Positions 27,139-52,162 of a stretch of DNA of 52,162 nucleotides are shown here, piece after piece. The first letter of the stretch is position 1. Each line of letters begins with the position of its first letter. Location of the stretch: the IMG/VR virus record IMGVR_UViG_3300022227_000004, positions 1-52,162 of that record; one strand, written 5' to 3'. The position numbers and the translations under genes are program-made. Source of the DNA: a virus. The notes beneath the pieces were generated by a model. That model was not told the origin of the DNA. It searched no databases and was given only the letters and a program-made list of their open reading frames with translations.

Positions 27139-27573
27139 ATGAAGTTAAGAGAAGCCAGAAGAAAAAGAACACAATTGCACAGAGGAACTGACGGTCAGTG
27201 GCGTGCAGACATGGGTACTGTCAAAAAATTCATTCAAAGCATAAAGGGTAGTACAAAAATTGAAGTAGAAACAGGCAAAAGAGCTCGGGCTAGTTTTTAC
27301 GTCTATGAAGACAAGAAAAAGAATACTGGTTTCAGTGTTGGAATTTATACAGACATAGCAGAATATGAATATACGATTGGCACTTTTGTTGAAGGCATGA
27401 ATTCAACTCAAGTTGAAGAAGGAACAAGTGCTGAAGGATGGCAAGTGGGCAGAAAGAAAGCTGATTTGATGAAAATGTTGAATGAATTAAAAACAAAATT
27501 ACAAAGAATGCAAAGTAAAGGCGTAGTACAATCTACTGCCGATTCAAAAGGCGGCAAAAACGGAGCTAAATAA
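27139..27573 (+). CDS. Protein with MKLREA leader, 144 aa, unknown function
   Basis: It begins MKLREARRKR, the first of about nineteen genes here sharing this leader, with L-R-E fitting the (L/I)-x-E cleavage rule of T4 gp21-like prohead proteases. The body contains beta-rich segments (TKIEVETGKRARASFYVY, FSVGIYTDIAEYEYTIGTF) and a helical C-terminus. Family unknown. It is coupled to the next gene by TAATG. Capsid targeting is inferred. Confidence 0.65.
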   Translation: MKLREARRKRTQLHRGTDGQWRADMGTVKKFIQSIKGSTKIEVETGKRARASFYVYEDKKKNTGFSVGIYTDIAEYEYTIGTFVEGMNSTQVEEGTSAEGWQVGRKKADLMKMLNELKTKLQRMQSKGVVQSTADSKGGKNGAK

Positions 27574-29018
27574 TGAAACTAAAGGAAGCGGTTAGAATGT
27601 TAGGTGAAGGTGCCAGAGAAAAGGCAGCTGAAAAATTTCTATCTGACATGATTAACCGATCTCCATTTAAAGGAAAGGTTTTCATAGCAGGAGGTTATGT
27701 TAGAGATGAATTGATGGGAATAGATCCCAAAGATATCGATTTGGTTATTGAATTGCCAGATGGAGGTATCAAGTTTGCCGAGTGGGCTACTAAGAAGATG
27801 GGGAACTATAAAAAAGGATCAAACCCAGTCGTATACAAAAGATTCGGTACTGCTAAATTCAACCTAGCTGGAACATATAAAGGATTTGACCTTGGCGATA
27901 TAGAAATAGAATCAGTAATGTCAAGATCAGAACAATACTCTAAAGGGTCAAGAAAGCCCAAAGTACAATCAGGAACATTGAAACAAGATGTAGAAAGAAG
28001 AGATTTCACAGTCAATAGTTTATTGAAAAATCTCTCGACAGGTGAAATAGTAGATCTAACAGGACAAGGCAGAGCAGATCTAAAGAAGGGTGTTATCAAG
28101 ACACCATTAGATCCTGATGTCATTTTTACAGAAGATCCTCTTAGAATGCTTAGAGCTGTGCGTTTTACAGCAAAATATGGATGGCAACTTCCCTTGTTTA
28201 TGATCAAAGCTATGAAGAAGAATGCAGCTAAGATCAACAACATTTCAGATGAAAGAGTAAGGGAAGAGCTAGACAAAATGATTACAACAAAAAGTCCTAA
28301 GCAAGCCATAAAGATTCTAAAGGTTACAGGATTATTGAAATATGTTATGCCAGAACTTCAGGCTACGGTTGGTGTGTGGCAAAACAAACATCACGATAAG
28401 GATGTATTCAATCATATTCTGGATGTAGTTCAAGGAGTGCCTCCCGAACTACCAAGAAGATTGGCAGCTCTATTTCATGATATTGGTAAACCAACGGTTA
28501 AAAAGGTTATCGATAATGAAGCCAGGTTCTTTGGTCATGAAGATATAGGATCAGAGATTGCTGGTGAAATAATGAAACGTCTGAAATATCCCAATGCTGT
28601 TATCGATAGGATAAAGATTCTTGTTGCTAATCATATGAGATTGAAACAAACTGGCAGAAAGGGTGAAAAGGCAACAAGCAAACAGCTCAGAAAACTAAAG
28701 AGAGTAATGGGTGATCATTTAGAAGATCTATTGCATCTAATGGATTCCGACAATAGAGCACACGGTCCAAGCTCCTCTATGCCTGATCAGATAAAAGGAA
28801 TTAGAGGTAGATTGGATAAGCTATCCCAAGATACACCAAAAGATCTATCTAGCCTACCTATTTCAGGAAATGACATTAAAAATAGCTTTAAACTTAAGCC
28901 GGGTCCTATTTATAAGGACTTGTTGAACGCTGTTCAAGATGCGATTGACGAGAATCCGAAGTTGACTAAACGTCAGGCACTAATCATAGTTAGAGATAAA
29001 CTAAGAGAAACTAAATGA
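27573..29018 (+). CDS. tRNA nucleotidyltransferase (CCA-adding)/poly(A) polymerase family, with MKLKEA leader
   Basis: After a leader (MKLKEAVRMLGEGA, with an L-G-E site) the protein shows the class II nucleotidyltransferase motifs: FIAGGYVRDELMG, then DPKDIDLVIE (catalytic DxD), VERRDFTVNSLL, EDPLRMLRAVRF, and a C-terminal HD domain, ALFHDIGKPTVK. It is 481 residues long, usual for CCA enzymes with an HD domain. The family adds or repairs the 3' CCA of tRNA. Unusually, it carries the putative capsid-targeting leader, so it may be delivered with the DNA. The phage tRNA-Ser and tmRNA in this window encode CCA already. Confidence 0.85.
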   Translation: MKLKEAVRMLGEGAREKAAEKFLSDMINRSPFKGKVFIAGGYVRDELMGIDPKDIDLVIELPDGGIKFAEWATKKMGNYKKGSNPVVYKRFGTAKFNLAGTYKGFDLGDIEIESVMSRSEQYSKGSRKPKVQSGTLKQDVERRDFTVNSLLKNLSTGEIVDLTGQGRADLKKGVIKTPLDPDVIFTEDPLRMLRAVRFTAKYGWQLPLFMIKAMKKNAAKINNISDERVREELDKMITTKSPKQAIKILKVTGLLKYVMPELQATVGVWQNKHHDKDVFNHILDVVQGVPPELPRRLAALFHDIGKPTVKKVIDNEARFFGHEDIGSEIAGEIMKRLKYPNAVIDRIKILVANHMRLKQTGRKGEKATSKQLRKLKRVMGDHLEDLLHLMDSDNRAHGPSSSMPDQIKGIRGRLDKLSQDTPKDLSSLPISGNDIKNSFKLKPGPIYKDLLNAVQDAIDENPKLTKRQALIIVRDKLRETK

Positions 29019-30960: not shown

Positions 30961-31178
30961 ATGAAAATTAAAGAAGCAAGACTTAATGAGAGAGATACAA
31001 TCCCCGGCAATGCTATGAAACATGTCGAGGACTGTATGGATCCTATTCGATCAGCTATAGATTTGATGCGAAGGGAAAAAATGCAAAGGACATTTTGAAG
31101 AGATTGCGGAGAATCGATAAAGATTTAGATGAAGTGTTTTATAAACTTCAAGATATAACTTCAGATTGGCCTAGTTAA
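30961..31178 (+). pseudogene. Frameshifted small gene with MKIKEA leader
   Basis: The first frame (30961-31098) gives MKIKEARLNERDTIPGN... and stops after 45 residues. The sequence continues in another frame (KNAKDILKRLRRIDKDLDEV...) to a stop at 31178, with similar charged helical character. The two join at the A6 run in gggaaaaaatg near 31078-31083, where one extra A would restore one 72-codon frame. This may be a real mutation, slippage expression or a homopolymer error in the sequence. The leader contains L-N-E. Confidence 0.5.
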
Positions 31179-31564: not shown

Positions 31565-31798
31565 ATGAAAATTAAAAGATCAGATATTGAAGCTGTTGTT
31601 AAAGAAGTATTGCAAGAAATGGAAGCTAAGGTAAAGAAAGGTGATTATTTTAATCACGAAGGTGAGACTTGGGTAGTTGTTACTCCTGGTACTACTGAAT
31701 CCAGAGTCGCCGTTGCAACGGGGATGGGAACGTGGCGGGAAAAAGGTATCCAGGACAACAAGATCATAGTAAAAAATAGAACAACAAGCATGAAATAA
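31565..31798 (+). CDS. Protein with MKIKRS leader, 77 aa
   Basis: It begins MKIKRSDIEAVVKEVLQEME, almost the same as the leader of 51582 (MKIKRSEIKQIVEEVLNEG). Both form an amphipathic helix ending in L-x-E, the T4-type prohead protease site. The body is a small beta domain (KKGDYFNHEGETWVVVTPG). Capsid targeting is inferred. Confidence 0.65.
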   Translation: MKIKRSDIEAVVKEVLQEMEAKVKKGDYFNHEGETWVVVTPGTTESRVAVATGMGTWREKGIQDNKIIVKNRTTSMK

Positions 31799-32248: not shown

Positions 32249-32677
32249 TTGACTGATGCGCTATTGATAAAAAGTATAAAAGCAATGCTATACGCATTGC
32301 ATTTAAAAGTGCCTCCTTATGTGATCACACAAATAATGAACAAGGTAGCACCGATTATACAGCCATTGATGGAGAATAAAGGAATGAAACTAAAAAACAT
32401 ACTAACAGAAGACATAGCAGATGATAAATGGATTCACCAATTTGGTAATTATCTAGATGCTAGTGATATGTCTAAAATGAAAGATGATAGCCATACACAA
32501 GTCTGGGAATTTTATATAGATGATATCGATCCCAATGAACCAGTAATAATAAACTTTTACAACTACAGTGGTTGGGAAGCTACATTCAAAGGAAAGCAGT
32601 TTGCAAAAGGATCAACTGCAAATAGACCACAAGTTGAAGCTAAGATATTAAAAAAATATATGGCTAAAATGAGATAA
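32249..32677 (+). CDS. Protein with internal MKLKNILTE start, 142 or 97 aa
   Basis: The open frame begins at a TTG (32249), but an ATG at 32384 has AAAGGA just upstream and starts MKLKNILTEDIADD, matching the shared leader with an L-T-E site. The upstream 45 codons (LIKSIKAMLYALHLKVPPYV...) look like real amphipathic protein. Either a separate small gene has lost its stop and fused, or two products are made. I prefer the inner start for the tagged product. The C-terminal domain is unrecognised. Confidence 0.5.
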   Translation: MTDALLIKSIKAMLYALHLKVPPYVITQIMNKVAPIIQPLMENKGMKLKNILTEDIADDKWIHQFGNYLDASDMSKMKDDSHTQVWEFYIDDIDPNEPVIINFYNYSGWEATFKGKQFAKGSTANRPQVEAKILKKYMAKMR

Positions 32678-32680
32678 AAT

Positions 32681-32884
32681 ATGAAATTGAAATCAGCAAT
32701 GAATGAAGAAGAGTGGGGAGTTTTCTCATCTGGCGGATCGATTGGGAATAAAAGTGGTGGCAAGCCAATTGCAACTGGAAGTAAAGAAGATATGCAGGCT
32801 AAAGCCAAAAGAATGACTAAGTCATTATCGCCTGGTGAAAAGAAATATTACAAAATGAAATATTCAGCTAGAGCAATAAAGTGA
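32681..32884 (+). CDS. Protein with MKLKSA leader, 67 aa
   Basis: Begins MKLKSAMNEEEWGVFSSGGS, followed by a Gly/Ser/Lys-rich low-complexity region and a basic C-terminus (SPGEKKYYKMKYSARAIK). It overlaps the next gene by GTGA. Small, basic and tagged, it resembles an internal head protein. Confidence 0.6.
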   Translation: MKLKSAMNEEEWGVFSSGGSIGNKSGGKPIATGSKEDMQAKAKRMTKSLSPGEKKYYKMKYSARAIK

Positions 32885-33054
32885 AACTAAGAGAAGCCAT
32901 CACTATCAATGTCAAAGTTGGCGATACTATTCTTACAGGAAAATTTAAGAACAAGAAAACTGTGATCAAAACAATTTCAACTGATGAACACGGAATGCCT
33001 GTGATCAATGGTAGAAAAGCAGCTACATTCCGAATAATGAGAGATAAAGAATGA
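32881..33054 (+). CDS. Protein with KLREA leader and small beta (KOW-like) domain, 57 aa
   Basis: It starts at GTG overlapping the previous stop, giving (M)KLREAITINVKVGDTILTG. The rest (KFKNKKTVIKTISTDEHGMP...) resembles a mini SH3/KOW-type beta barrel with conserved Gly and basic residues. It is too short to be certain of a fold. Stop and start overlap with the following gene. Confidence 0.6.
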   Translation: MKLREAITINVKVGDTILTGKFKNKKTVIKTISTDEHGMPVINGRKAATFRIMRDKE

Positions 33055-33332
33055 AACTAAAAGATACTAATGTAATCGAAGAAGGAATTGTAGATACTCT
33101 TCTAAAGAAGATGGGTATTAGAAAAGAAACAAATATGCAAAAAGCCATAAATCTAGTAAAGAAAAGTATAGAACGAAAAGGATCAATGGCTTCAGAGGAA
33201 TATGCAAACCAAGTTTCTGAGAAGTTTGGCTTAGAATTAGGTATGGATGGATTAGTGCGATTGGCTTTGGCTAGTATGATAGATGATTTAAAAAATGATC
33301 CAGGCCCTAGTCATCTTGACAGACGTTATTAA
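33051..33332 (+). CDS. Protein with MKLKDT leader, 93 aa
   Basis: Begins MKLKDTNVIEEGIVDTLLKK, with I-E-E just before Gly. The remainder is helical, with a repeated-looking SEEYANQVSEKFGLELGMDG region. Family unknown. ATGA overlap with 32881 implies coupled expression of the tagged series. Confidence 0.6.
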   Translation: MKLKDTNVIEEGIVDTLLKKMGIRKETNMQKAINLVKKSIERKGSMASEEYANQVSEKFGLELGMDGLVRLALASMIDDLKNDPGPSHLDRRY

Positions 33333-33344
33333 GAGAGATAAAGA

Positions 33345-33497
33345 ATGAAATTAAACGAAGCTAATGAAATGAACAAGTTAGATGAAGCTATCAGAAATTT
33401 AACTGATTATATTAATTCGTTAAACCGATCAGGAAAAAATCCTAAAAATATTCTTAAGTCTTATGTGTTGCCAGAACTTGAACGACTAGTTAGATGA
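33345..33497 (+). CDS. Protein with MKLNEA leader, 50 aa
   Basis: GAGAG precedes the ATG. The product MKLNEANEMNKLDEAIRNLT... contains an L-D-E site followed by Ala and is entirely helical. It overlaps the next gene by ATGA. Confidence 0.6.
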   Translation: MKLNEANEMNKLDEAIRNLTDYINSLNRSGKNPKNILKSYVLPELERLVR

Positions 33498-33715
33498 AGT
33501 TAAGAGAATCTATGAAGCGTTCTTATAGATTAGCTGCAGGAAGTAATGATAAAATCATAGTCTATGGAGCAACATCAAAAGATACAGCAGCATTACAAGA
33601 TGAACTAGGACCAAATGTAGGAAATGCAGGAATAAAAGTGGTTATAAAGACTGACAAATATAATTTAGAAAGATCATTTCAAGCCTTAGACGATCTAGGG
33701 TTTATGAGAGAATAA
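33494..33715 (+). CDS. Protein with MKLRES leader, 73 aa
   Basis: Begins MKLRESMKRSYRLAAGSNDK, then an alpha/beta stretch (IIVYGATSKDTAALQDELG, IKVVIKTDKYNLERSF). The ordered strand-helix pattern suggests a small folded domain rather than a scaffold. Family unknown. Confidence 0.6.
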   Translation: MKLRESMKRSYRLAAGSNDKIIVYGATSKDTAALQDELGPNVGNAGIKVVIKTDKYNLERSFQALDDLGFMRE

Positions 33716-33716
33716 A

Positions 33717-33938
33717 ATGCGATTAAGAGAAGCTGATAAAGATAGAATATATCTTAAATCTAAGAATCCTGATGAAATGAAAGCAATGAAAAGAGGAATT
33801 GCATTGCGTAAAGTGCACACCGATATTGGGAAATTGAAATCAGAAATTGAATATCTTCAAAGATCAATAGGCCGGGATGGTTATACACCCGATGTAAAAA
33901 AATTTATACGAAATATTAAAACATATAAAAAAAGCTAG
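33717..33938 (+). CDS. Protein with MRLREA leader, 73 aa
   Basis: Begins MRLREADKDRIYLKSKNPDE and continues as a Lys/Arg-rich helical protein ending FIRNIKTYKKS. Its basic character and leader fit an internal, DNA-associated head protein. Function is inferred. Confidence 0.6.
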   Translation: MRLREADKDRIYLKSKNPDEMKAMKRGIALRKVHTDIGKLKSEIEYLQRSIGRDGYTPDVKKFIRNIKTYKKS

Positions 33939-36554: not shown

Positions 36555-36643
36555 GGAGAGCCTGGCAAGGGTGAGCTAAGCAGTTTGCTAAACTGTAGTC
36601 ATTCAAAAGTGGCTTACGAGTTCAAATCTCGTGCTCTCCACCA
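36555..36643 (+). tRNA. tRNA-Ser(GCT)
   Basis: Acceptor GGAGAGC (36555-36561) pairs with GCTCTCC (36633-36639), followed by A and an encoded CCA. The anticodon arm GCAGT-TTGCTAA-ACTGT places GCT at 36587-36589, reading AGC/AGU codons. A long variable arm (36597-36615, with AGTC/GGCT pairing) and a perfect T arm ACGAG-TTCAAAT-CTCGT identify a class II serine tRNA. The discriminator is A, whereas serine tRNAs usually have G. It probably compensates for codon use of the AT-rich phage genome. Confidence 0.9.
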
Positions 36644-36675: not shown

Positions 36676-38688
36676 ATGAATCTTAAGGAGCTAGCAAAAG
36701 CTGAACAATCTAGACATGAAAGTGAAAACTGGGAAGGTTCATTTGAGGAATATCTCAAAATGGCCAAAGAAGATCCTAGAATTACTCATAATGCTTATCA
36801 AAGATTGCATGCTGCAATTCTTCACTATGGAACTACAGAGCATACAGAGCTTAAAGAAAAGATTATTCATTACAAGCTCTTCGATGATCCATTTGAAGAT
36901 GGTGTAGATGCTATCCGAGGATTAGATAAGTCGCTGATGGATTTTGTCAGGCTGTTAGAAGCTGCATCAGAAAGTTTTGGAGTTGATAGAAGAATCTTAT
37001 TGCTCCACGGCCCTGTTGGTTCTTCAAAATCTTCTATTGCTAGAGTAATCAAGAAGGGTTTGGAAGATTATACACGAAAGCCCGAAGGTGCACTCTATAC
37101 TTATCGTTGGATAAAAGTAGATGATCACGATGAATCTGGTGTTGGAGATAAGATTGTTGATTGTCCAATGCATGAAGATCCAATTCATTTGATTCCTGCT
37201 AGACATAGAAAAGACCTTGGTTTCGATCATGTCAAAGGTAATATCTGTCCATTGTGCAGACATTTTTATATAAAGTTGATGGATACTCATGAAGGTGACT
37301 TTGAAAAAGTTATCAAAAATCATATTCAAGTTTTCAGGTTTGTATTTTCAGAAGATAATAGAATGGGTATCACTACATTCCAGCCTAAAGATGAAAAGAA
37401 TCAGGATTCAACAGAGCTAACAGGCGATATTGATTACCGAAAGATTGCTGAATATGGAAAAGATTCTGACCCTAGAGCATTTAATTTCGATGGTGAGCTC
37501 AACTGTGCTAATCGAGGTTTTATTGAAATGATTGAGATGCTCAAGCTTGATACTGCATTTCTTTACGATTTGCTTACAGCATCTCAAGAACATAAGATTA
37601 AGCCTAAGAAGTTTGCTCATGTTGACATTGATGAAGTTATTCTTTCACATACCAATGAGCCAGAATTCATTAAACTTCAAAAGGATAAGTTGCAGGAAGC
37701 TCTGAGAGATAGAATCGTTAAGGTAAATATTCCTTATGTATTGAAGCTCGATGATGAAATTAAGATCTATGAGAAACTGTTCAAGTCTGATACAGTAGGA
37801 AAGTTTATTGCTCCTCATACTCTCGAAATTGCAGCAATGTGGGCTATTTTGACAAGGCTCGAACCTCCTGTTGGAAATATTACATACGTTCAGAAGATGA
37901 AGTTATACAATGGAAGAGCTCTTCCAGGATTCAATGAAGAGAATGTTAAAGAGCTTCAGGAAAAAGCAGTTCGAGAAGGAATGGACGGAATTTCTCCAAG
38001 ATATATTCAGGACAAAATCTCAAATGCAATTGTGAATCATCCAGAAGTTGTAAATGTTAATCCATTTATGGTTTTGAATGAACTTGATTCGGGCCTTGAT
38101 GGATATTCTCTAATCGAAAGTGAAGATAGGAGAAAGGAATTCAGAGCTTTGCTGGAAGATGTTAAGACTGAATATGAAGACATTATTAAGAATGAAGTTC
38201 AAAGAGCAATCGCAGCTGATGAGGAAGCACTTCAAAAGTTGTTTGCTAATTACATTGATAATGTTAAGGCTTACACAAGCAGTGAAAAGGTGAAAAACAA
38301 GTTGACTCAGAAAGATGAAGAACCAAATGAATCTTTGATGAGATCAATAGAAGAGAAAGCCAGAATTCCTGCAGATAGGAAGGATGATTTTAGACAGCAA
38401 ATCATGAATTATATTGGTGCTTTGGCTGTTGATGGAAAGAAGTATGATTATAAATCCAATGAACGACTGCTTCAGGCACTTGAAAGAAAGTTGTTTGAAG
38501 ATCAGAAGGATACAATCAAGATTCATCAGCTCGTACATGGCACGGTCGATGATGATACTCAAGGAAAAATTGATATTGTCAAGACAAGAATGATTGAAAA
38601 TTATGGTTACGATGATCAATCAGCTCAAGATGTTCTCGAATATGTATCTTCAATTTATGCAAGGTCAGATTCTAAAGATGAGAATTAA
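36676..38688 (+). CDS. prkA: PrkA-type AAA+ serine protein kinase (YeaG family)
   Basis: AAGGAG precedes the ATG. The 670-residue protein matches PrkA along its length: N-terminal WEGSFEEYLKMAKEDPR, AAA+ Walker A GPVGSSKS (residues 112-119), a cysteine-containing CPMHEDPIHLIP and LCRHFY region, then ELTGDIDYRKIAEYGKDSDP, ELNCANRGFIEMIEMLK and LTASQEHKIKPK, and a complete PrkA C-terminal domain. In bacteria, PrkA/YeaG works with YeaH and SpoVR/YcgB in starvation and stress responses. All three partners follow here in order. Full length and undamaged motifs suggest an active protein. Confidence 0.92.
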   Translation: MNLKELAKAEQSRHESENWEGSFEEYLKMAKEDPRITHNAYQRLHAAILHYGTTEHTELKEKIIHYKLFDDPFEDGVDAIRGLDKSLMDFVRLLEAASESFGVDRRILLLHGPVGSSKSSIARVIKKGLEDYTRKPEGALYTYRWIKVDDHDESGVGDKIVDCPMHEDPIHLIPARHRKDLGFDHVKGNICPLCRHFYIKLMDTHEGDFEKVIKNHIQVFRFVFSEDNRMGITTFQPKDEKNQDSTELTGDIDYRKIAEYGKDSDPRAFNFDGELNCANRGFIEMIEMLKLDTAFLYDLLTASQEHKIKPKKFAHVDIDEVILSHTNEPEFIKLQKDKLQEALRDRIVKVNIPYVLKLDDEIKIYEKLFKSDTVGKFIAPHTLEIAAMWAILTRLEPPVGNITYVQKMKLYNGRALPGFNEENVKELQEKAVREGMDGISPRYIQDKISNAIVNHPEVVNVNPFMVLNELDSGLDGYSLIESEDRRKEFRALLEDVKTEYEDIIKNEVQRAIAADEEALQKLFANYIDNVKAYTSSEKVKNKLTQKDEEPNESLMRSIEEKARIPADRKDDFRQQIMNYIGALAVDGKKYDYKSNERLLQALERKLFEDQKDTIKIHQLVHGTVDDDTQGKIDIVKTRMIENYGYDDQSAQDVLEYVSSIYARSDSKDEN

Positions 38689-38690
38689 TT

Positions 38691-39779
38691 ATGGCAACTG
38701 TCAAAAAAGATCAATCTCGATTTAAAAAGAAGATTAGAGAGAATGTAAAAAAGAACATTAAGAATATTATCAATGGGGAATTTCAATCTGTAAAGGGTGG
38801 AAAATCCGTGAAGGTTCCCATTGATAGCATTCACATTCCTCGGATCAGATATACGGTAGAAAATGAAGGTGGGGTTGGTAGAGGAGAAGGTGAAGAAGGA
38901 GAAGTGCTTGGAATTGATGAAGGCGATGGTGAAGGACAGCAACAAGCTGGCAATGAAAAAGGCCAACATTCAGTCTATGCTGATATTTCACTCGAAGAAG
39001 CCGCTGAAATTCTAGGTGAAGAACTTCATCTACCAAATATTGTGCCAAAGGGACAGAAAGTAATTGAAGGAGAAAAAGATAAGTATAACACAGTATCTGA
39101 CTCCGGTCCCAGAAGCTTAAGACATAAGAAGCGAACACTAAAGAACACAATCAAAAGAGGTAGACCAGATTTGGTTCCTTATGTAAATGATTTCAAGTAT
39201 AAATCTTGGACTCGCAGACCTTCTCCAATGAACAATGCTGTTGTATTTTATATGCAAGACATATCAGCTTCAATGAGTAGAGAACAACTAGTATTAGTTA
39301 GAACTATTTGTTTCTGGATTGAAGCTTGGCTATCAAAAGAATATGATAACGTCGATATTAGATATATCATGCACGATACGATAGCAGGTGAGGTTACACA
39401 AGAACAATTCTATGCTTATTCTCCAGGTGGTGGAACTATGATTTCAACAGCATTTCAAAAGATGCTTGAAAGAATCAAGCTATCATATCCTGTAGATGAT
39501 TGGAATATCTATCCTTTCTATTTTGGGGATGGAGATAACTGGGGTGAAGATTCAGACATAGCTATTAAAATGGTGACTGAAGATTTGGTTCCTATTTGCA
39601 ATCAATTGAGTATTGGAATAATCGAAAGTGCCTGGCAATCAGTTGGTAATTTCGGAACTCAATTGCAAGAAAAAATGCAGCATGATGAAGAGTTGGCAAA
39701 GAAATTAAGCATAACTACTATACAAAGTATAAACGGTGTTTACGATGCTATAAAAGAATTCTTAGGGAAAGGAAACTAA
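38691..39779 (+). CDS. yeaH: YeaH/YhbH family protein (DUF444, VWA-like)
   Basis: It starts two bases after the prkA stop. The N-terminal region is basic, followed by a Gly/Glu-rich low-complexity stretch (GVGRGEGEEGEVLGIDEGDG). The conserved DUF444 core is RSLRHKKRTLKNTIKRGRPD, YKSWTRRPSPMNNAVVFYMQ, DISASMS (a metal-site-like DxSxS), and YSPGGGTMISTAF. Bacterial yeaH is co-transcribed with the PrkA kinase, and this phage keeps that order. The 362-residue length is close to the bacterial protein. Confidence 0.9.
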   Translation: MATVKKDQSRFKKKIRENVKKNIKNIINGEFQSVKGGKSVKVPIDSIHIPRIRYTVENEGGVGRGEGEEGEVLGIDEGDGEGQQQAGNEKGQHSVYADISLEEAAEILGEELHLPNIVPKGQKVIEGEKDKYNTVSDSGPRSLRHKKRTLKNTIKRGRPDLVPYVNDFKYKSWTRRPSPMNNAVVFYMQDISASMSREQLVLVRTICFWIEAWLSKEYDNVDIRYIMHDTIAGEVTQEQFYAYSPGGGTMISTAFQKMLERIKLSYPVDDWNIYPFYFGDGDNWGEDSDIAIKMVTEDLVPICNQLSIGIIESAWQSVGNFGTQLQEKMQHDEELAKKLSITTIQSINGVYDAIKEFLGKGN

Positions 39780-40020
39780 CGTTCTTTCTTTGCTCTTTTT
39801 AGAATAAAAAACAAATTATATGATTTTTACTTACCTGATTATAATATATTGATTGAAGTTGATGGCATATATTGGCATGCTAGAAATGAAAATAATAGAC
39901 CAAAATACTGGAAAAAGATAAAAAACAACGATGAATATAAAAACAAATTAGCAAAAGACAGAGAGTTTAAACTCGTCAGGATATGGGAAGATGAAATTCA
40001 CAAAAAATGGAGATTTTGTT
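39780..40020 (+). pseudogene. Truncated Vsr/EDxHD-type homing endonuclease remnant
   Basis: Between yeaH and spoVR, in the same frame as yeaH and directly after its TAA, an open stretch without a start codon encodes LYDFYLPDYNILIEVDGIYW, then HARNENNRPKYWKKIKNNDE, and ends FKLVRIWEDEIHKKWRFC. This is the C-terminal part of a Vsr-like nuclease (DFYLPDYN, E-x-D-x-x-x-H, RIWE). The N-terminal region is missing. It suggests a mobile endonuclease once sat in, or invaded, this operon. Confidence 0.65.
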
Positions 40021-40024
40021 AACG

Positions 40025-41620
40025 ATGAAAGACAAATTCAACTATATTGTAGATTTTCCAACCGAATTGAAAGATTGGAAATATGATATAGAGAAAATTG
40101 CTCTTGAAGAGGGTTTAAGCTTTTTCGATACTATTTTTGAGATGGTTGATTGGGATTCTTTGTATCAAATAGCAGGTAGAGGAGGATTTCCCGAACGATA
40201 TCCTCACTGGAGTTTTGGTCAAGACTATGATCATATGAGTAAGCAACACTCATTCGGTGTCATGAAAATTTCAGAAATGGTTATAAATACAGATCCTTGT
40301 TATGCTTATCTAATGACAAGTAATAGTTTGGCCGATCAAAAAATGGTCATCGCCCATGTCTATGGACATGCAGATTTCTTCTTAAATAACATGTGGTTTA
40401 GCAAAACAGATAGAAAGATGCTCGATACAATGGGCAATCATTCTAAAATTGTCAATATGTATGTCGATCGATATGGTGAAGAATCAGTAGAGAGCTTCTT
40501 AGATATTTGCTTGAGTATAGATTCGCTGGTTGATAAGCATTCTATCTTTATTCAGAGAAAGTCAACACCGGTTAGAAAAATGGCTTCACCTCTTGATGAA
40601 AAAATAGAAAACATAGATGATGCTATTGATATTTTTGATATTGATCCTGAAAAGCAATACATGGATGAATTCATAAATAAAAAAGAAGATATTGAGAAGC
40701 TAAGAAAAGAAGCCAGAGACGATAAAAAAGAAGAAGATGAAAGAGATAAAGGATTGCCTGAAAAGGATATTCTATTGTTGCTAATTAATAGAGCTCCTAT
40801 GAAACACTGGCAGCGACATATTCTATCATTGCTTAGAGAAGAATCTTATTATTTTGCTCCTCAAGCTATGACAAAGATTATGAATGAAGGTTGGGCTTCT
40901 TACTGGCACGAACATATTATGACAAAGAGACGGATTCTTTGTGATGATGAATTAATAGAATATGCAGAACAACATGCTGGAACAATGGGATCTAGTAAGC
41001 AATTGAATCCCTACAAGTTAGGATTAGAAATATTCAAAGACATAGAAGATAGATGGAACAAAGGTAAGTTTGGCAAAGAATGGGAAGATTGTGAAAATCT
41101 ACAAGAGTTGGAAAATTGGGACAAAAAGGTGGGTAAGGGCAGGGAAAAGATTTTTGATGTAAGAAGAACTCATAACGATGTTGAATTTATTGATGAATTT
41201 TTTACTAAAGAATTGTGTGAAAAGCTACAGCTTTATAATTATGATAAGAGAGATCTTCCTGGAAATATTGGAAAGGTTTATATCTTAACTGATAGAGAGT
41301 TTGCTAAGATAAAACAGCGACTGTTATTCAGCCTATCTAATCATGGTTTGCCTGCAATCACTGCCACTGAAACTGATTTTCAGGGTAATGGAACATTGAA
41401 ATTGGTTCATTCTACTGAATCTGACTATGTATTTGAAGAAGGTGAAGCCAAAGAAGTTGTTAAAAATATACAGGCTCTATGGAAGAAGCCTGTTCAATTG
41501 GAACTGACAAACAAAAATGGTAAATACACGTACACTAATAGAGGAGCTCAAACAACTGTTTCAAAATCGAGTATAGAACCAAAACCCAGTGATATTTATG
41601 ATACATATGAATTTGAATAA
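40025..41620 (+). CDS. spoVR: SpoVR/YcgB family protein
   Basis: GGAG (40009-40012) lies 12 bases before the ATG at 40025. An upstream in-frame ATG (40007) belongs to the endonuclease remnant and lacks a ribosome site. The 531-residue product matches SpoVR: FPERYPHWSFGQDYDHMSKQ, KISEMVINTDPCYAYLM, VIAHVYGHADFFLNNMWF, APMKHWQRHILSLLREESYY, MNEGWASYWHEHIM and NPYKLGLEIFKDIEDRWNKG. It completes the PrkA-YeaH-SpoVR set. In Bacillus SpoVR affects the spore cortex, and in other bacteria it belongs to the stress trio. Its stop lies two bases before the tmRNA. Confidence 0.92.
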   Translation: MKDKFNYIVDFPTELKDWKYDIEKIALEEGLSFFDTIFEMVDWDSLYQIAGRGGFPERYPHWSFGQDYDHMSKQHSFGVMKISEMVINTDPCYAYLMTSNSLADQKMVIAHVYGHADFFLNNMWFSKTDRKMLDTMGNHSKIVNMYVDRYGEESVESFLDICLSIDSLVDKHSIFIQRKSTPVRKMASPLDEKIENIDDAIDIFDIDPEKQYMDEFINKKEDIEKLRKEARDDKKEEDERDKGLPEKDILLLLINRAPMKHWQRHILSLLREESYYFAPQAMTKIMNEGWASYWHEHIMTKRRILCDDELIEYAEQHAGTMGSSKQLNPYKLGLEIFKDIEDRWNKGKFGKEWEDCENLQELENWDKKVGKGREKIFDVRRTHNDVEFIDEFFTKELCEKLQLYNYDKRDLPGNIGKVYILTDREFAKIKQRLLFSLSNHGLPAITATETDFQGNGTLKLVHSTESDYVFEEGEAKEVVKNIQALWKKPVQLELTNKNGKYTYTNRGAQTTVSKSSIEPKPSDIYDTYEFE

Positions 41621-41622
41621 TT

Positions 41623-41910
41623 GGGGCAGAATCTGGATTCGACTGTTAATTGATCATACGAGTGCATCTAAACAACAAAAATATTCGACAACGAATACTC
41701 TTTAGCTGCTTAATCAGCTACGTGTGCCTTAGGGACTCCGATATTTAAGGATTTCACGTAAACGTTTCGGAATGTTAAAAGTAATACCTTTGCTACACTG
41801 TCATAAATTTTGCTTATTATTTTATGATTGCGATTCAAATAAGATATAGATGTGAATGACTTATATGCTAGGTTAGCAACACGCCGGTTCAAACCCGGCC
41901 TGCTCCACCA
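41623..41910 (+). ncRNA. ssrA: Transfer-messenger RNA (tmRNA)
   Basis: The 5' end GGGGCAGAATCTGGATTCGAC and the 3' end GGTTCAAACCCGGCCTGCTC plus CACCA are the conserved tmRNA termini. GGGGCAG pairs with CTGCTCC over seven bases with a G3-U wobble, the alanine identity element, and CCA is encoded (41908-41910). The tag frame ending at the TAA at 41711-41713 reads (T)TKIFDNEYSLAA, with the usual -LAA degradation tail. The resume codon is either ACA at 41672 or the next ACA. At 288 nt this is a complete, one-piece tmRNA with room for pseudoknots. It would rescue stalled ribosomes and tag nascent proteins. Confidence 0.95.
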
Positions 41911-41928: not shown

Positions 41929-42873
41929 ATGTATATAAGAGATGTATTGGTAGAAAAAATTGATTACCAGAAGGAAATTATAGAAAAAGGATCCGACCTT
42001 ATTACATCGTCAGATCCTTTTTTTAGAAATATAATCAAAGCTTCTACTGTATGCTCTGATGCCGTAAAAGAAATGTTGAAGAGCGGTAAAGTTCTTGTAA
42101 GGAATTCAAACAATAAAGCTCATAGCTATTATAGAGGGCCTTCTAGAAATAGAAAACCAGTAGATTCTAATCAGAGCACAGATGATTTTTTTGAAAAATA
42201 CAGAAAGAAATACTGGCCTGATATTCCATCAAGAAGAAAAGCTACATTCTCGTTTTCTGCTAAAGTAACAAGCAGAAGTTTAGATGCTTATGAGGTGAGC
42301 GACTCCGGCTATGGTTCACAGCTATTGGTAGTGATACCAAAAAATGGTACCAAATATTTTCAGTCAAAATATATAAAAGATTTTTTTGATTCAACATTAT
42401 CTAATGATATTAGAGATCATGTATCATTAGAAAGTATAGATCGATTGAAAAATGCTCTTAAAGATGCTGAAGAAGATTTAGAAAATAGAAAAATAGATCT
42501 TTTCAACACACAAAAACAATATGGAAAAATGGCTTTGATGCAAGATGAAATTAAAATGGCTAAGCGAAGAGTAGCATGGGCAGAAATGGATTTAGAATCC
42601 ACTCACGATGAATATATTGCAGCTAAGCAGATGCAAGATCCGAAGAAAATAGAAAAATCAATGGACAGATATTTTAATCAGATCAATTGGAAAATTTCTC
42701 AATTGATTACTGGGAGTCATAAATTTGAAGTCGTAATAGAACACAAAGGTTATTTTGCATTCTCTGTAAAGATATGGGAAGCTTATATAAAGCAAATGAG
42801 AATACCTCCATTGAGAATATTAGAACCAGAATATGTCAAGGCTTTGAATGGTGCTATTAGGAAAATTAAGTGA
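41929..42873 (+). CDS. Paralogue A of a phage protein family (possible ADP-ribosyltransferase fold), with leader
   Basis: The start MYIRDVLVEKIDYQ resembles the shared leader and holds an L-V-E site. The core RNRKPVDSNQSTDDFFEKYR, then IPSRRKATFSFSAKV, then LLVVIPKNGTKYFQSKYIKD, is clearly homologous to the next gene. A long coiled-coil insertion (about residues 175-225) separates it from a C-terminal VIEHKGYFAFSVKIWEAY. The R...S/F-F...E order recalls ADP-ribosyltransferases, and T4 packages such enzymes (Alt) in its head. This functional call is tentative. Confidence 0.55.
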   Translation: MYIRDVLVEKIDYQKEIIEKGSDLITSSDPFFRNIIKASTVCSDAVKEMLKSGKVLVRNSNNKAHSYYRGPSRNRKPVDSNQSTDDFFEKYRKKYWPDIPSRRKATFSFSAKVTSRSLDAYEVSDSGYGSQLLVVIPKNGTKYFQSKYIKDFFDSTLSNDIRDHVSLESIDRLKNALKDAEEDLENRKIDLFNTQKQYGKMALMQDEIKMAKRRVAWAEMDLESTHDEYIAAKQMQDPKKIEKSMDRYFNQINWKISQLITGSHKFEVVIEHKGYFAFSVKIWEAYIKQMRIPPLRILEPEYVKALNGAIRKIK

Positions 42874-43691
42874 AGCTAAGAGAAGCTATATTTAAGAGTG
42901 TTCCATTTGATGAGGTGGAAAAGCATGTTGATTACATACAAGAAAGAGTTGCAGGCAAAGGTTATAAGAAAATGTTGCAGCATATTGTAGCTATTTCTAA
43001 TGGTGCTAGTAATGTAGTCAAGGATATGACAATGAAAAGAATATGCTTGGTAAGAGGAACAGATGCTAAAGGTTCTCCTGTATTTTCTCATTCGAAGAGA
43101 ACAACTGAAAGAAAACCAGTTGATTCTAGAAGAGATATAGATGAATATGTAGAGCAATTTAGAGCTAAAAATTATGGTAGTATTCCATCAAGAAGAAAAT
43201 CAGTCTACTGTTTCTTGACTAATTGGACTCGAGGGAATAGCAAAGCTGGAATGAATGAATATGCTAGAAGTTATGGCAGAAATATATACGTAGTATTTCC
43301 ATTGAACGGTTCAAAATATTTTCAGTCTTTGAAAGTGCCTGACTTTTTGAATTCATGGCCGTATAGTATGGTGGAAGAATATCTTGAATTTAAGAGTAGA
43401 GGTGTTTTTCTCAGTGGTAATGAGCCTGATCTTACAGGAAATAAAGAATCGGCTTTTAGCAAAGTCAAGAAGTCTAAAGACAGAGCAGATGAAGAGCTTG
43501 ATAAATATTTCACTAATTCTAATAATAAGTTTGCTCAAATGAGCAAGAAAAATCATGAAATCGTCATAGAACATAAAGGCTATATAGCTTTAAATACTTT
43601 TGACTTGAATGTATATGCCGAGCTGTATAAGGGAGGAGTGGATGTATTCCACGGAGATCATATAGCATTCTTAAAGAAGCGTATAATATGA
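42870..43691 (+). CDS. Paralogue B of the same family (possible ADP-ribosyltransferase fold), MKLREA leader
   Basis: GTG start overlapping the previous stop gives (M)KLREAIFKSVPFDEVEK. Shared blocks with 41929 are ERKPVDSRRDIDEYVEQF, IPSRRKSVYCFL, YVVFPLNGSKYFQSLKVPDF and EIVIEHKGYIAL. An ICLVRGTD segment upstream could be the ART arginine strand. It lacks the long coiled coil of its paralogue. The pair probably arose by tandem duplication. Leader and location suggest packaging in the head. Confidence 0.55.
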   Translation: MKLREAIFKSVPFDEVEKHVDYIQERVAGKGYKKMLQHIVAISNGASNVVKDMTMKRICLVRGTDAKGSPVFSHSKRTTERKPVDSRRDIDEYVEQFRAKNYGSIPSRRKSVYCFLTNWTRGNSKAGMNEYARSYGRNIYVVFPLNGSKYFQSLKVPDFLNSWPYSMVEEYLEFKSRGVFLSGNEPDLTGNKESAFSKVKKSKDRADEELDKYFTNSNNKFAQMSKKNHEIVIEHKGYIALNTFDLNVYAELYKGGVDVFHGDHIAFLKKRII

Positions 43692-44317
43692 AATTACAAA
43701 CACTTATAATAGAAAACATAATAGCTGAATATTCAGAACTTGTTCTAGAAAGAGCTGAAAATGATTTCAATAGAATAGCATCTAGATTATCCAACAAGTT
43801 ATTTATATTAACCGGTCACCCAAGAAGCGGAAAGAGCACAGTTGTTACTAATTATATTAGACCGAGATCAAAGAATCTAAAGATTGTCAATCCTGATGAC
43901 ATCTCTACTATGTTTACAAAAGATCCTAATGTTCATAAGAGAGGTGCCACACATCTATCTATAAAATCATCTACTAATTTCTTTGCTAAAGCAAGAAAAG
44001 ATAAGGCTGATTTTTTGTATGATTCAACAGGCACTGATACTTCTCGAATGAAGACAATATCCGATAAAGGTTCTAGCAATGGATATAATATTATCGTCAT
44101 AAGTGTTTTTGCTCCATTGAAAACAGCTCTTGATAGAAATGCTAAAGCAGATAGACAAGTAGATCAAGATTATTTAATTTCAGCTTGGAAGGAATCACAG
44201 AGCAATATAAGAAAAGTATGGAATGCCATTAAACCAAAGTTTCATTTCATTGTAGTCAATACGAATGAACGGACAACTTGGTATAAATTCAATGGTAAGG
44301 AGATTGTAAGAAAGTAA
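43688..44317 (+). CDS. P-loop kinase (zeta-toxin/polynucleotide-kinase-like), with leader
   Basis: It begins MKLQTLIIENIIAEYSELVL with I-I-E in the leader. Walker A GHPRSGKST follows at about residue 42, then LKIVNPDDISTMF, FLYDSTGTDTSRM and IIVISVFAPLKTALDRN. This order of P-loop, DD and lid Arg residues fits small phosphotransferases such as zeta-type toxins or polynucleotide/nucleoside kinases. The substrate is unknown. A tagged, packaged kinase would be an injected effector, which is inference. Confidence 0.65.
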   Translation: MKLQTLIIENIIAEYSELVLERAENDFNRIASRLSNKLFILTGHPRSGKSTVVTNYIRPRSKNLKIVNPDDISTMFTKDPNVHKRGATHLSIKSSTNFFAKARKDKADFLYDSTGTDTSRMKTISDKGSSNGYNIIVISVFAPLKTALDRNAKADRQVDQDYLISAWKESQSNIRKVWNAIKPKFHFIVVNTNERTTWYKFNGKEIVRK

Positions 44318-44790: not shown

Positions 44791-45363
44791 ATGAAACTAA
44801 GAGAAGCAGTAGCGACAGGTGATATACAAGATCTTGCCGATCAATATGCTAACGCATTTGAAGATGGTGATCAAGGTGAAATGCAAAATGTTGAAGGCTT
44901 AATGGCAGCGCAATTAGCTGGTAAAGGTTGGGACAAAGCTGCAACTAAAAGATTTCTAGATGAACTAGCTGCTGCTGGTGATGGATCTGATGTGTATAAG
45001 TTAATGACTAAGTATAACCTCTTCGATAGAAAATATACTCTTGATGAATATTCTCCTACTGATGAAACTAATATGTACAAAGTTCAGATATCCATTCCAT
45101 TGATAGAAAAAGATGCTGCTAAAGCTGATTCTAAAGAATTAGTTTCGTTTTTGAAGGAGAAGGGAATCAAAGTAATTAAAGCAAAATCTAAATCAACATC
45201 TCCTTTCAAAGTAGCTGATAATACAGTTATGGATGTTGATCTTGATATGATCATCAAAACTAAGATGGAGCGTGACGAAATTTTTAATGTCATCGAGCCA
45301 AGATATGAACTAGTAAGTTGTGAAGAAATTATAAATGGCAAAATAAGGGATGGAGGAATGTAA
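44791..45363 (+). CDS. Protein with MKLREA leader, 190 aa
   Basis: Begins MKLREAVATGDIQDLADQYA. The N-terminal 75 residues are helical, and the C-terminal part is alpha/beta (MYKVQISIPLIEKDAAKADS, then VDLDMIIKTKMERDEIF). No domain recognised. It is the largest tagged protein of unknown type. Its stop overlaps the next ATG. Confidence 0.65.
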   Translation: MKLREAVATGDIQDLADQYANAFEDGDQGEMQNVEGLMAAQLAGKGWDKAATKRFLDELAAAGDGSDVYKLMTKYNLFDRKYTLDEYSPTDETNMYKVQISIPLIEKDAAKADSKELVSFLKEKGIKVIKAKSKSTSPFKVADNTVMDVDLDMIIKTKMERDEIFNVIEPRYELVSCEEIINGKIRDGGM

Positions 45364-45452
45364 TGAGACTAAGAGAAGCTATAGCTAAATTTTTAGATTT
45401 TGACAAGAAAGAAATGAATCTTATTAAAAAATTATTCGGAAAGATAAGTTAA
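45363..45452 (+). CDS. Mini-gene with MRLREA leader, 29 aa
   Basis: ATG overlaps the previous stop (TAATG) and its own stop overlaps the next ATG. The product starts MRLREAIAKFLDFDKKEMNL and ends in a basic amphipathic helix (IKKLFGKIS). It is little more than the leader plus one helix, so it could be a peptide cargo or a decaying gene. Confidence 0.5.
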   Translation: MRLREAIAKFLDFDKKEMNLIKKLFGKIS

Positions 45453-47897: not shown

Positions 47898-49619
47898 ATG
47901 GATAAATTTGATGTTCTTAAGAGGCTAGTTACAGGTAGAAAAGCAGGGTATAAAGTTCCCACAGAACGCCCGGGCCAAAGAGCTCAGAAACGAGCTTTCG
48001 ATACTTTTAGTAGAGCTGCTACATCTATATACAACCAAGCTTTAGCGGGTGGTGTTGAAAGACATGAACGAGTAAAAGATTATGAAGAAATGGATGCTAC
48101 TCCTGAAATTTCTAAGGCGTTAGATATATATGCTGATGATGCTTGTACTTATTCTGAAGAAGGGATCGTACTCAACATAGAATCTGATGATGAGAGAATT
48201 ACAGGAGAATTAGAAGAGCTATTCTTTGAAAGATTAGATATTGAATTCCATTTATGGAATTGGATAAGAAACATGTGCAAAAATGGTGACAACTTTGGAT
48301 TATTGGATGTTGTCGATAAAGAAGGTGTCCTAGGATTAATATCATTGCCAGTATTAGAAATAGAAAGAGAAGAAGGTTATGATGGTGACCCTAACTCATT
48401 AAGATTCAGATGGACTGCTCAAGGTAACACCACATTTGATCCATACCAAATATCACATATGAGAATTCTAGGTGATGACAGATTCCTGCCTTATGGAAGA
48501 TCAATCTTAGATCCTGCAAGAAAAATATGGAAGCAGTTATCTTTAGCTGAAGATGCAATGCTTATTTACAGAATGACAAGAGCTCCTGAAAGAAGAGTTT
48601 TTAAGATTGATGTTGCAAATATTCCACCCAACCAAGTAGAACAATACATTATACAGACAAGAGACAAGCTCAAAAGAACACCTTTGGTAACAGAATCAAC
48701 AGGACAGTTGGATTATAGATTCAATCCTATGTCAATTGATGAGGATTTCTTCCTTCCAGTTAGAGGTGATAGAGGATCTGATATTGAGACTCTACCAGGT
48801 GGAACTAACCAGGGCGATATAGAAGATATTGAATACATTCAGAATAAGCTATTCATTTCACTAGGTGTACCAAAATCATACCTTACAGCTGAAGAAGATC
48901 TTGCTGGTAAAGCTACATTGGCACAGGAAGATATTAAGTTTGCTAGAACAATTCAGAGAATTCAGAAGATTATTGTTTCTGAATTAGCTAAAATTGGATT
49001 AATTCACTTATTCTTAAGAGGATTTGATGAAGAAAAGATATATAATTTTGATCTTAAACTGACAAATCCTTCTACTGTTATGGAAATGATGCAGTTAGAG
49101 CTTGTCGAAAAGAGATTTGATATAGCCAATACTATGGCTGATTCACACCTAGTATCAGATTTATACACGCAGAAAGAAGTATTGAGGTTAACTGATAATG
49201 AAATTGTTAAAGGTAATGAGCTTCTATTGGACGAAGCAAGAAGAAAGTATATACTCCAATCGATTGAAAGTGGTGAAGAACCTCCTGCTGAAACAGAAGA
49301 ACCAGAAAGAAAAGATCCTCCTAAGGAAAATCAAACAGATACAGGACCTTCAGCTGTTCCAGATCCATTTGGTACTAAGGACCTTCCAGGTGTTCCAAAT
49401 GAAGATTCCTTGGGGACTGATCATCAAAGCGGAGATTTGATTCGAAAGGGTAAGAGCAGAAAAGATCCATTCAACAAAAGTATATCAGATGTTATGCGAC
49501 ATGATAGAAAGATTGATAAGATATTTGAGACATTACAGAATAATAGACCTACAAAAAGTTTGTCAGAAGATAAAGAATTCAAAGCTGCATTCAAAAATCG
49601 GAACAACAACAGACGATAG
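47898..49619 (+). CDS. Portal protein (T4 gp20-like)
   Basis: The 573-residue protein contains MDATPEISKALDIYADDACT, then NWIRNMCKNGDNFGLLDV, RILGDDRFLPYGRSILDPA, RMTRAPERRVFKIDV and LFISLGVPKSYLTAEEDLAG, all typical of T4-like gp20 portal subunits. Twelve copies form the DNA channel at the head vertex and dock the terminase. The C-terminal tail is Pro/Glu-rich and probably disordered. AAGGA lies directly before the ATG. Confidence 0.95.
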   Translation: MDKFDVLKRLVTGRKAGYKVPTERPGQRAQKRAFDTFSRAATSIYNQALAGGVERHERVKDYEEMDATPEISKALDIYADDACTYSEEGIVLNIESDDERITGELEELFFERLDIEFHLWNWIRNMCKNGDNFGLLDVVDKEGVLGLISLPVLEIEREEGYDGDPNSLRFRWTAQGNTTFDPYQISHMRILGDDRFLPYGRSILDPARKIWKQLSLAEDAMLIYRMTRAPERRVFKIDVANIPPNQVEQYIIQTRDKLKRTPLVTESTGQLDYRFNPMSIDEDFFLPVRGDRGSDIETLPGGTNQGDIEDIEYIQNKLFISLGVPKSYLTAEEDLAGKATLAQEDIKFARTIQRIQKIIVSELAKIGLIHLFLRGFDEEKIYNFDLKLTNPSTVMEMMQLELVEKRFDIANTMADSHLVSDLYTQKEVLRLTDNEIVKGNELLLDEARRKYILQSIESGEEPPAETEEPERKDPPKENQTDTGPSAVPDPFGTKDLPGVPNEDSLGTDHQSGDLIRKGKSRKDPFNKSISDVMRHDRKIDKIFETLQNNRPTKSLSEDKEFKAAFKNRNNNRR

Positions 49620-51950: not shown

Positions 51951-52162
51951 ATGGAAAAGCAATTATTAACTGAGTTCCTCCTCTTCGAATATGATGCTAT
52001 CGAACCCATTACTGATCCCAATAGTGATGGTATAGTCAGAATGAAAGGCATAATTCAAAGAGCTAATTCACCAAATGCAAACAATAGAATATATCCAAGA
52101 GCAATTCTTGAAAGAGAAGATAAGAATATGCAAGCTTCTATAACTGAAAGAAGAGCATTGGG
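51951..52162 (+). CDS. Prohead maturation protease (T4 gp21-like), 5' part
   Basis: The first 70 residues are visible and the gene runs off the window. MEKQLLTEFLLFEYDAIEPI, then GIVRMKGIIQRANSPNANNR and IYPRAILERE, followed by ITERRALG, match the start of T4 gp21-type S78 proteases (G-x-F/I-x-x-A-x-x-x-N-x-N-x-R-x-Y-P). In T4 this serine protease cleaves core and internal proteins after (L/I)-x-E. Its own N-terminus contains L-T-E, compatible with self-cleavage. Catalytic His and Ser lie beyond the window. Confidence 0.85.
   Translation, partial: MEKQLLTEFLLFEYDAIEPITDPNSDGIVRMKGIIQRANSPNANNRIYPRAILEREDKNMQASITERRAL

Follow-up and report, generated by a model that had tools for sequence, protein, structure and literature searches.

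The gene at 27573-29018 of a marine T4-like phage fragment raises the question of why a tRNA-processing enzyme of a phage should begin with a short peptide found at the start of other genes around it, and whether that peptide sends the enzyme into the virus head. The fragment, an IMG/VR record of 52,162 nucleotides, was analysed as a whole and is referred to below as the window. An earlier note on this DNA had proposed that a homologue of CCA-adding enzymes carries a putative capsid-targeting leader here and that the enzyme, if packaged, could repair cut or trimmed tRNAs on entry into the cell. The gene is built as follows (arrows in sequences mark predicted cuts):

27562-27565, + strand: ribosome-binding site GGAG for the leader start, identified in the sequence
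27573-29018, + strand: CCA-adding enzyme homologue with leader, 481 aa, ATG start
27573-27608, + strand: leader MKLKEAVRMLGE, residues 1-12, with a predicted prohead-protease cut after E12 (LGE↓G)
27678-28097, + strand: nucleotidyltransferase head domain (Pfam PolyA_pol, E = 4e-21, residues 36-175)
28206-28361, + strand: PolyA_pol RNA-binding domain (Pfam PolyA_pol_RNAbd, 2e-15, residues 212-263)
28458-28679, + strand: HD domain (Pfam HD, 6e-9, residues 296-369)

The nucleotidyltransferase and HD domain that the earlier note had read behind the leader are borne out, Pfam and PHROG identifying a complete nucleotidyltransferase, RNA-binding and HD arrangement, and the ORF matches PHROG 2244 (‘tRNA nucleotidyltransferase’) at 1.6e-61. 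The head-domain signature GG...DxD and RRDxxxN is present together with the later motifs; residues G40, G41, R44, D45, D54, D56, R142, R143, D144 and N148 are invariant among 21 viral relatives, nearly all of which also keep the HD residues H302-D303, H281, H322, H354 and D393. Architecture and motifs are identical in kind to those of phage tRNA nucleotidyltransferases (PHROG 2244, jumbo-phage CCA enzymes). An AF2 model of the enzyme (pLDDT 92) superimposes over nearly its whole length on solved CCA enzymes with VIA-align Z-scores of 27-29 (Z = 28.8, r.m.s.d. = 3.0, 367 residues for 6qy6; Z = 27.7, r.m.s.d. = 3.2, 389 residues for 1miv). At E ≤ 0.001 the PDB yielded 46 matches, every one of them in the CCA/poly(A) polymerase superfamily, with CCA-adding or tRNA-processing enzymes at the top. 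Fold and catalytic motifs are shared with bacterial CCA-adding enzymes (TIGR02692, and the solved 1miv and 6qy6), and the HD domain with TIGR02692, but the window enzyme differs from them in an N-terminal extension of ~12 residues, and its identity to the solved enzymes is only ~22%. With 218 bits against an NCBIfam equivalog cut-off of 438.8, which is a naming rule rather than a biological feature, it is a divergent homologue as judged by TIGR02692. A PADLOC match of the protein to Cas3-HD was rejected as reflecting merely the HD fold. Taken together, ORF 27573-29018 very likely encodes a phage class II CCA-adding enzyme homologue, with CCA addition as its putative activity.

The leader MKLKEAVRMLGEGA was confirmed at the N-terminus of this enzyme. 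In the model, the predicted cut between E12 and G13 separates a low-confidence leader (pLDDT 47) from the fold, with a linker at residues 12-13. The first residue of the Bacillus enzyme (1miv_A) pairs with model residue 13, so that the leader looks prefixed to a complete enzyme. A second match to the motif (LKE↓A) lies at residues 3-5. An in-frame ATG at codon 9, preceded by AAGGA, is a possible alternative start that would remove most of the leader; in the relatives L113 and L120, a good alternative start ahead of the cut site is absent.

The relatives supply the stronger evidence. A profile search returned related enzymes (36-100% identity) at 47 viral loci. Among 39 distinct viral frames, 31 have an [LIM]xE motif 27-30 residues (28 in nearly all) ahead of the catalytic GG, while the same spaced motif occurs in only 4 of 78 bacterial homologues (Fisher 1e-16). 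P3 and P1 of the site are fixed and P2 is free, with ~12 different residues. In most relatives the precursor has a short, divergent, hydrophobic-basic leader, as in MIKLKQLIKE↓G, MIKLKNLLQE↓G, MIKLKNILLE↓G, MLKLTELLLE↓G, MKLKTILME↓G and MLKQILTE↓G. Seven to eight relatives lack a leader, and their starts fall near the boundary that matches G13; the starts of L003 and L143, at a contig edge, are uncertain. Leader labels cluster in the tree, where two starred clades (11 and 15 rows) are wholly leader-bearing. The papers searched describe no packaging leader for phage tRNA nucleotidyltransferases (PHROG 2244, jumbo-phage enzymes), and a search of non-subscription literature found no description of the leaders seen here.

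Further genes of the window begin in a similar way:

27139-27573, + strand: upstream leader gene MKLREARRKR..., 144 aa
29015-29095, + strand: 26-aa leader ORF MKLIEAAITDGFG...
30961-31098, + strand: 45-aa leader ORF MKIKEARLNE...
31565-31798, + strand: leader ORF MKIKRSDIEAVVKEVLQE, its body a module within the candidate polyprotein of L106
32384-32677, + strand: ORF with the canonical leader type of the relatives, MKLKNILTE↓D, GGAG upstream
32681-32884, + strand: leader ORF MKLKSAMNEEE..., its body a module within the candidate polyprotein of L106
32881-33054, + strand: leader ORF MKLREAITINVKVGDTILTG, GTG start; homologues with other leaders or none
33051-33938, + strand: four small leader ORFs in a run (33051, 33345, 33494, 33717)
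41929-43691, + strand: two paralogous leader genes, MYIRDVLVE↓K... and VKLREA...
43688-44317, + strand: Zeta-toxin/PNK-fold kinase with leader MKLQTLIIENIIAE; homologues also with leaders
44791-45452, + strand: leader genes MKLREAVATGD (190 aa) and MRLREAIAKF (29 aa)

The longest-ORF call at 32249-32677 probably begins too early, the likely real start being 32384. The two paralogues at 41929-43691 are 28% identical, with R62, S107-R108 and E230 among the invariant residues, and their relatives form a tandem of three in L015. An ADP-ribosyltransferase (Alt-like) identity for the pair (41929 and 42870) is unsupported, as Pfam, NCBIfam and PADLOC returned no match and the AF2 model is poor (pLDDT 46).

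The start pattern [ATG/GTG/TTG]-[KR]-[LI]-x-E-[AS], in frames of at least 25 aa, occurs 11 times on the + strand of the window and never on the − strand. All 11 occurrences lie within about 27.1-45.4 kb, outside the part devoted to replication and nucleotide metabolism (none of the 36 genes below 27.1 kb but 11 of the 39 above it; Fisher p = 5e-4), and the control rate per 52 kb is 0 for T4, phiKZ, immuto and Lak and 0.13 for LR756501. The window tag exceeds chance. Leader codons vary synonymously (TTA/CTA; GCC/GCG/GCA/GCT), which places the signal, or the selection, at the peptide and not at the DNA. The MKLxEA pattern by itself is clade-specific, being missing from LR756501 and Lak, and in the MKLxEA variants of the window the LxE match often falls at residues 3-5 only, which leaves scant room for a targeting segment. 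A plain count of [LI]xE over all genes gave an N-terminal enrichment of just ~1.0-1.6-fold, untagged genes diluting the signal, and conditional and PSSM tests took its place. Among genes with an MK[LIMFV] start, [LI]xE at residues 5-16 is commoner than among other genes in the window (Fisher 0.001) and in G003 (0.03), G004 (0.001) and G005 (0.006); the portal relatives G003-G015 are records without the CCA gene and therefore bear on the leader question only. The T4 late-promoter-like sequence TATAAATA was rejected as a mark of leader genes, which it does not single out.

The leader is shared with unrelated genes well beyond the window. A PSSM derived solely from the CCA leaders exceeded 8 bits at the N-termini of 78 out of 445 other genes in the loci of the CCA enzymes, compared with 9 of 1335 internal segments and 0 of 54 in phiKZ; over the window as a whole its signal is weak (p = 0.035). 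Locus L110 (14.5 kb) holds ~12 unrelated genes with MIKLKxxLxE-like starts, and in L120, L139 and L110 neighbouring unrelated genes with such starts stand in runs. Among the tagged bodies are NT5C nucleotidases, HD_4 domains, zeta-like kinases, a cytidylyltransferase-like protein and a GNAT protein. Similar leaders, without an established CCA gene, occur in the cultured Flavobacterium phage immuto and Microcystis phage Mel-JY01. LR756501 (735 kb, of which 400 kb were analysed) uses another leader, K/Y..F(I/L)NE↓(A/G/S), counted 12 times versus 0, 0 and 0 in control segments. In this 735-kb phage many proteins are tagged by F(I/L)NE-type leaders; separately, the string ‘DPYGEEDW’ is repeated across many of its proteins (L004, 17745-21446 and elsewhere) and several times within its 1233-aa CCA-containing frame.

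In L118, L123, L124, L125, L132, L137, L144 and L150, a longer frame has the CCA enzyme as its C-terminal module, with (L/I/M)xE↓G at the junction. A 575-aa frame of L106 (2099-3826) holds two modules that correspond to the separate tagged window ORFs at 31565 and 32681, LME↓G and LTE↓A preceding the former. These frames are suggestive of polyproteins cut at (L/I)xE junctions; some of the fused frames still contain internal starts behind weak ribosome-binding sites, and so some may be separate in-frame genes. In L137, a region that by eye resembles a phage lysozyme appears to lie N-terminal to the CCA enzyme in one frame.

The closest precedent is phage T4, where the first 10 residues of IPIII are enough for packaging, residues 4 and 7 serving targeting and residues 8 and 10 gp21 processing (PMC9026906). 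The latter two correspond to P3 and P1, the positions fixed in the leaders described here. T4 internal proteins are described as diverse defence proteins with the leader as their sole common feature (PMC3012670). As in the window, the leaders of IPI, IPII, IPIII and Alt are short, N-terminal, end in (I/L)xE plus a small residue and stand on unrelated bodies, and the same genome encodes a gp21-family protease and a gp20-type portal. The window counterparts are:

47898-49619, + strand: T4 gp20-type portal protein
51951-52162, + strand: gp21-type prohead protease (Peptidase_S77), first 70 codons, truncated by the record end

A terminase (phrog_2 match) is also encoded. The protease fragment has a weak Pfam S77 match, is 74-77% identical to the clade copies, and is 38-39% identical to the copies of G021, G023, G027 and G033, which pass the Pfam cut-off. 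Of the records of 19 relatives, 12 contain a full S77 protease gene, among them every record larger than 150 kb. The T4 leader MKTYQEFIAE↓A, which was seen in T4 itself, differs from the MKLxEA or MIKLKxLLxE type; the window clade has only the motif and the MK start in common with it, whereas the LR756501 leaders (KYxxFINE↓A) are very similar to it and closer than those of the window clade. The cargo is also different, a tRNA nucleotidyltransferase being unlike the T4 internal proteins and Alt, and targeting and cleavage are here predicted from sequence. In the giant phages phiKZ and SPN3US, propeptides of ejected head proteins are removed by a gp21-like protease, much as predicted for the window enzyme, but at (A/S)xE sites and mostly from long propeptides, unlike here (PMC5694885).

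The capsid-targeting leader of the earlier note is in this way well supported by independent comparative evidence: by a short leader ending in a conserved gp21-type (L/I)xE site at constant spacing and at a domain boundary, by the presence of this leader class on many unrelated genes, by the gp21-type protease in the clade and by the structural boundary at the predicted cut. We consider it likely that the leader is a capsid-targeting module that is removed, this being the best explanation of these features; the probable destination of the enzyme is the virus head.

Whether the enzyme is needed for the phage's own tRNAs bears directly on this reading. The window encodes two such RNAs:

36555-36643: tRNA-Ser, CCA encoded
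41623-41910: tmRNA, CCA encoded

Genes for PrkA kinase, DUF444 and SpoVR, ordinarily a bacterial operon for stress or sporulation, are grouped at 36676-41910, immediately ahead of the tmRNA gene. Both RNAs encode CCA, as the earlier note had stated, and so do 32 of 34 tRNA/tmRNA genes in G016, 35 of 39 in G023 and 53 of 54 in G027; in G021, no tRNA was found in the 168 kb searched, yet a leader-bearing enzyme is present. For these phages, maturation of phage tRNAs is therefore a weak reason to keep the enzyme, and the argument that routine maturation is insufficient stands. It does not carry over to LR756501, where 50 of the 57 tRNAs in the 400 kb analysed lack CCA and 7 encode it. The 76-kb close relative G003 has 26 tRNA genes, all with CCA, in a record without a CCA enzyme. 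An ordinary maturation enzyme made during infection, with a functionally irrelevant leader, would suit LR756501, and CCA enzymes are common among large phages (370 phage records) and are treated as RNA repair in a review of jumbo phages (PMC7824862); given the CCA-encoding genes, the case of G021 and a shared LxE leader with fixed spacing that it leaves unexplained, we regard this account as unlikely.

A real, prohead-recognised leader might instead mark core or scaffold material that mostly leaves the head or is degraded, or might sort proteins elsewhere in the infected cell. T4 gp22 and gp67 are cut to peptides (PMC9026906), the gene directly ahead of the protease in G023 has the leader-like start MIKLKELLN, and many leader ORFs of the window are tiny. 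However, intact enzymes (CCA, NT5C, HD_4, CTP-transferase-like, zeta-like kinase, GNAT) carry these leaders as well, the cut predicted for the CCA enzyme lies outside the folded domain, and the T4 internal proteins and Alt, whose leaders are of this kind, persist and are then ejected, which makes this possibility a rather slim one. It is improbable, too, that poly(A) or other tails are what the enzyme synthesizes, or that its HD domain acts on a signal nucleotide: nucleotidyltransferase specificity is not readable with certainty and the PcnB model does match (8.5e-30), but with 104 bits against the 218 of TIGR02692, both being under their own cut-offs, and with PDB matches led by CCA-adding and tRNA-processing enzymes. 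Finally, ATGAAA is a common start and there are alternative internal starts, as would be expected if the N-terminal likeness were a translation-initiation preference for A-rich early codons or a DNA-level sequence; the synonymous codon variation, the constancy of P3 and P1 while other leader residues diverge among relatives, and the retention of the site at module junctions in long frames (L137, L144, L106) render this highly improbable.

In the packaging model that we favour, the CCA enzyme would be produced as a precursor whose ~12 N-terminal residues act as a T4-type capsid-targeting sequence and bind the core of the prohead. After cleavage by the gp21-type protease behind E12 (LGE↓GARE), the mature enzyme, from G13 on, would be retained in the head and be delivered into the cell together with the DNA. 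Once inside, it could re-add CCA to tRNA 3′ ends ahead of phage gene expression, and its HD domain might clean damaged ends. We infer packaging, cleavage, ejection, substrate and benefit, and hold the whole sequence of targeting, cutting, packaging, ejection and tRNA repair on entry to be the best explanation and a reasonably probable one. A plausible role is the repair, on entry, of the 3′ ends of host tRNAs, inferred from its fit to an HD-containing enzyme and to CCA-cutting defences, of which Cas12a3 is an example (PMC12851939); given packaging, the chance that tRNA repair is the benefit appears about even.

More broadly, large T4-related environmental phages may fill their heads with many leader-tagged enzymes, some released by the prohead protease from polyproteins with (L/I)xE junctions, as a counter-defence kit active before transcription. 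Such cargo would include tRNA CCA repair, NT5C-type nucleotidases, HD_4 proteins ((p)ppGpp-hydrolase-like), cytidylyltransferase-like proteins (possible NAD synthesis) and zeta-like kinases; this wider proposal is tentative, and we place it slightly short of an even chance. The parts are known, jumbo-phage CCA enzymes (PMC7824862) and the T4 capsid-targeting sequence, and their combination is absent from the papers found. The shared cleavable leader offers a sequence rule for predicting injected phage proteins, something long missing for uncultured and huge phages. Host defences that cut tRNA can strike before a phage makes its own repair enzymes, and a CCA enzyme, if delivered by the virion, would be a means of countering this early tRNA cleavage.
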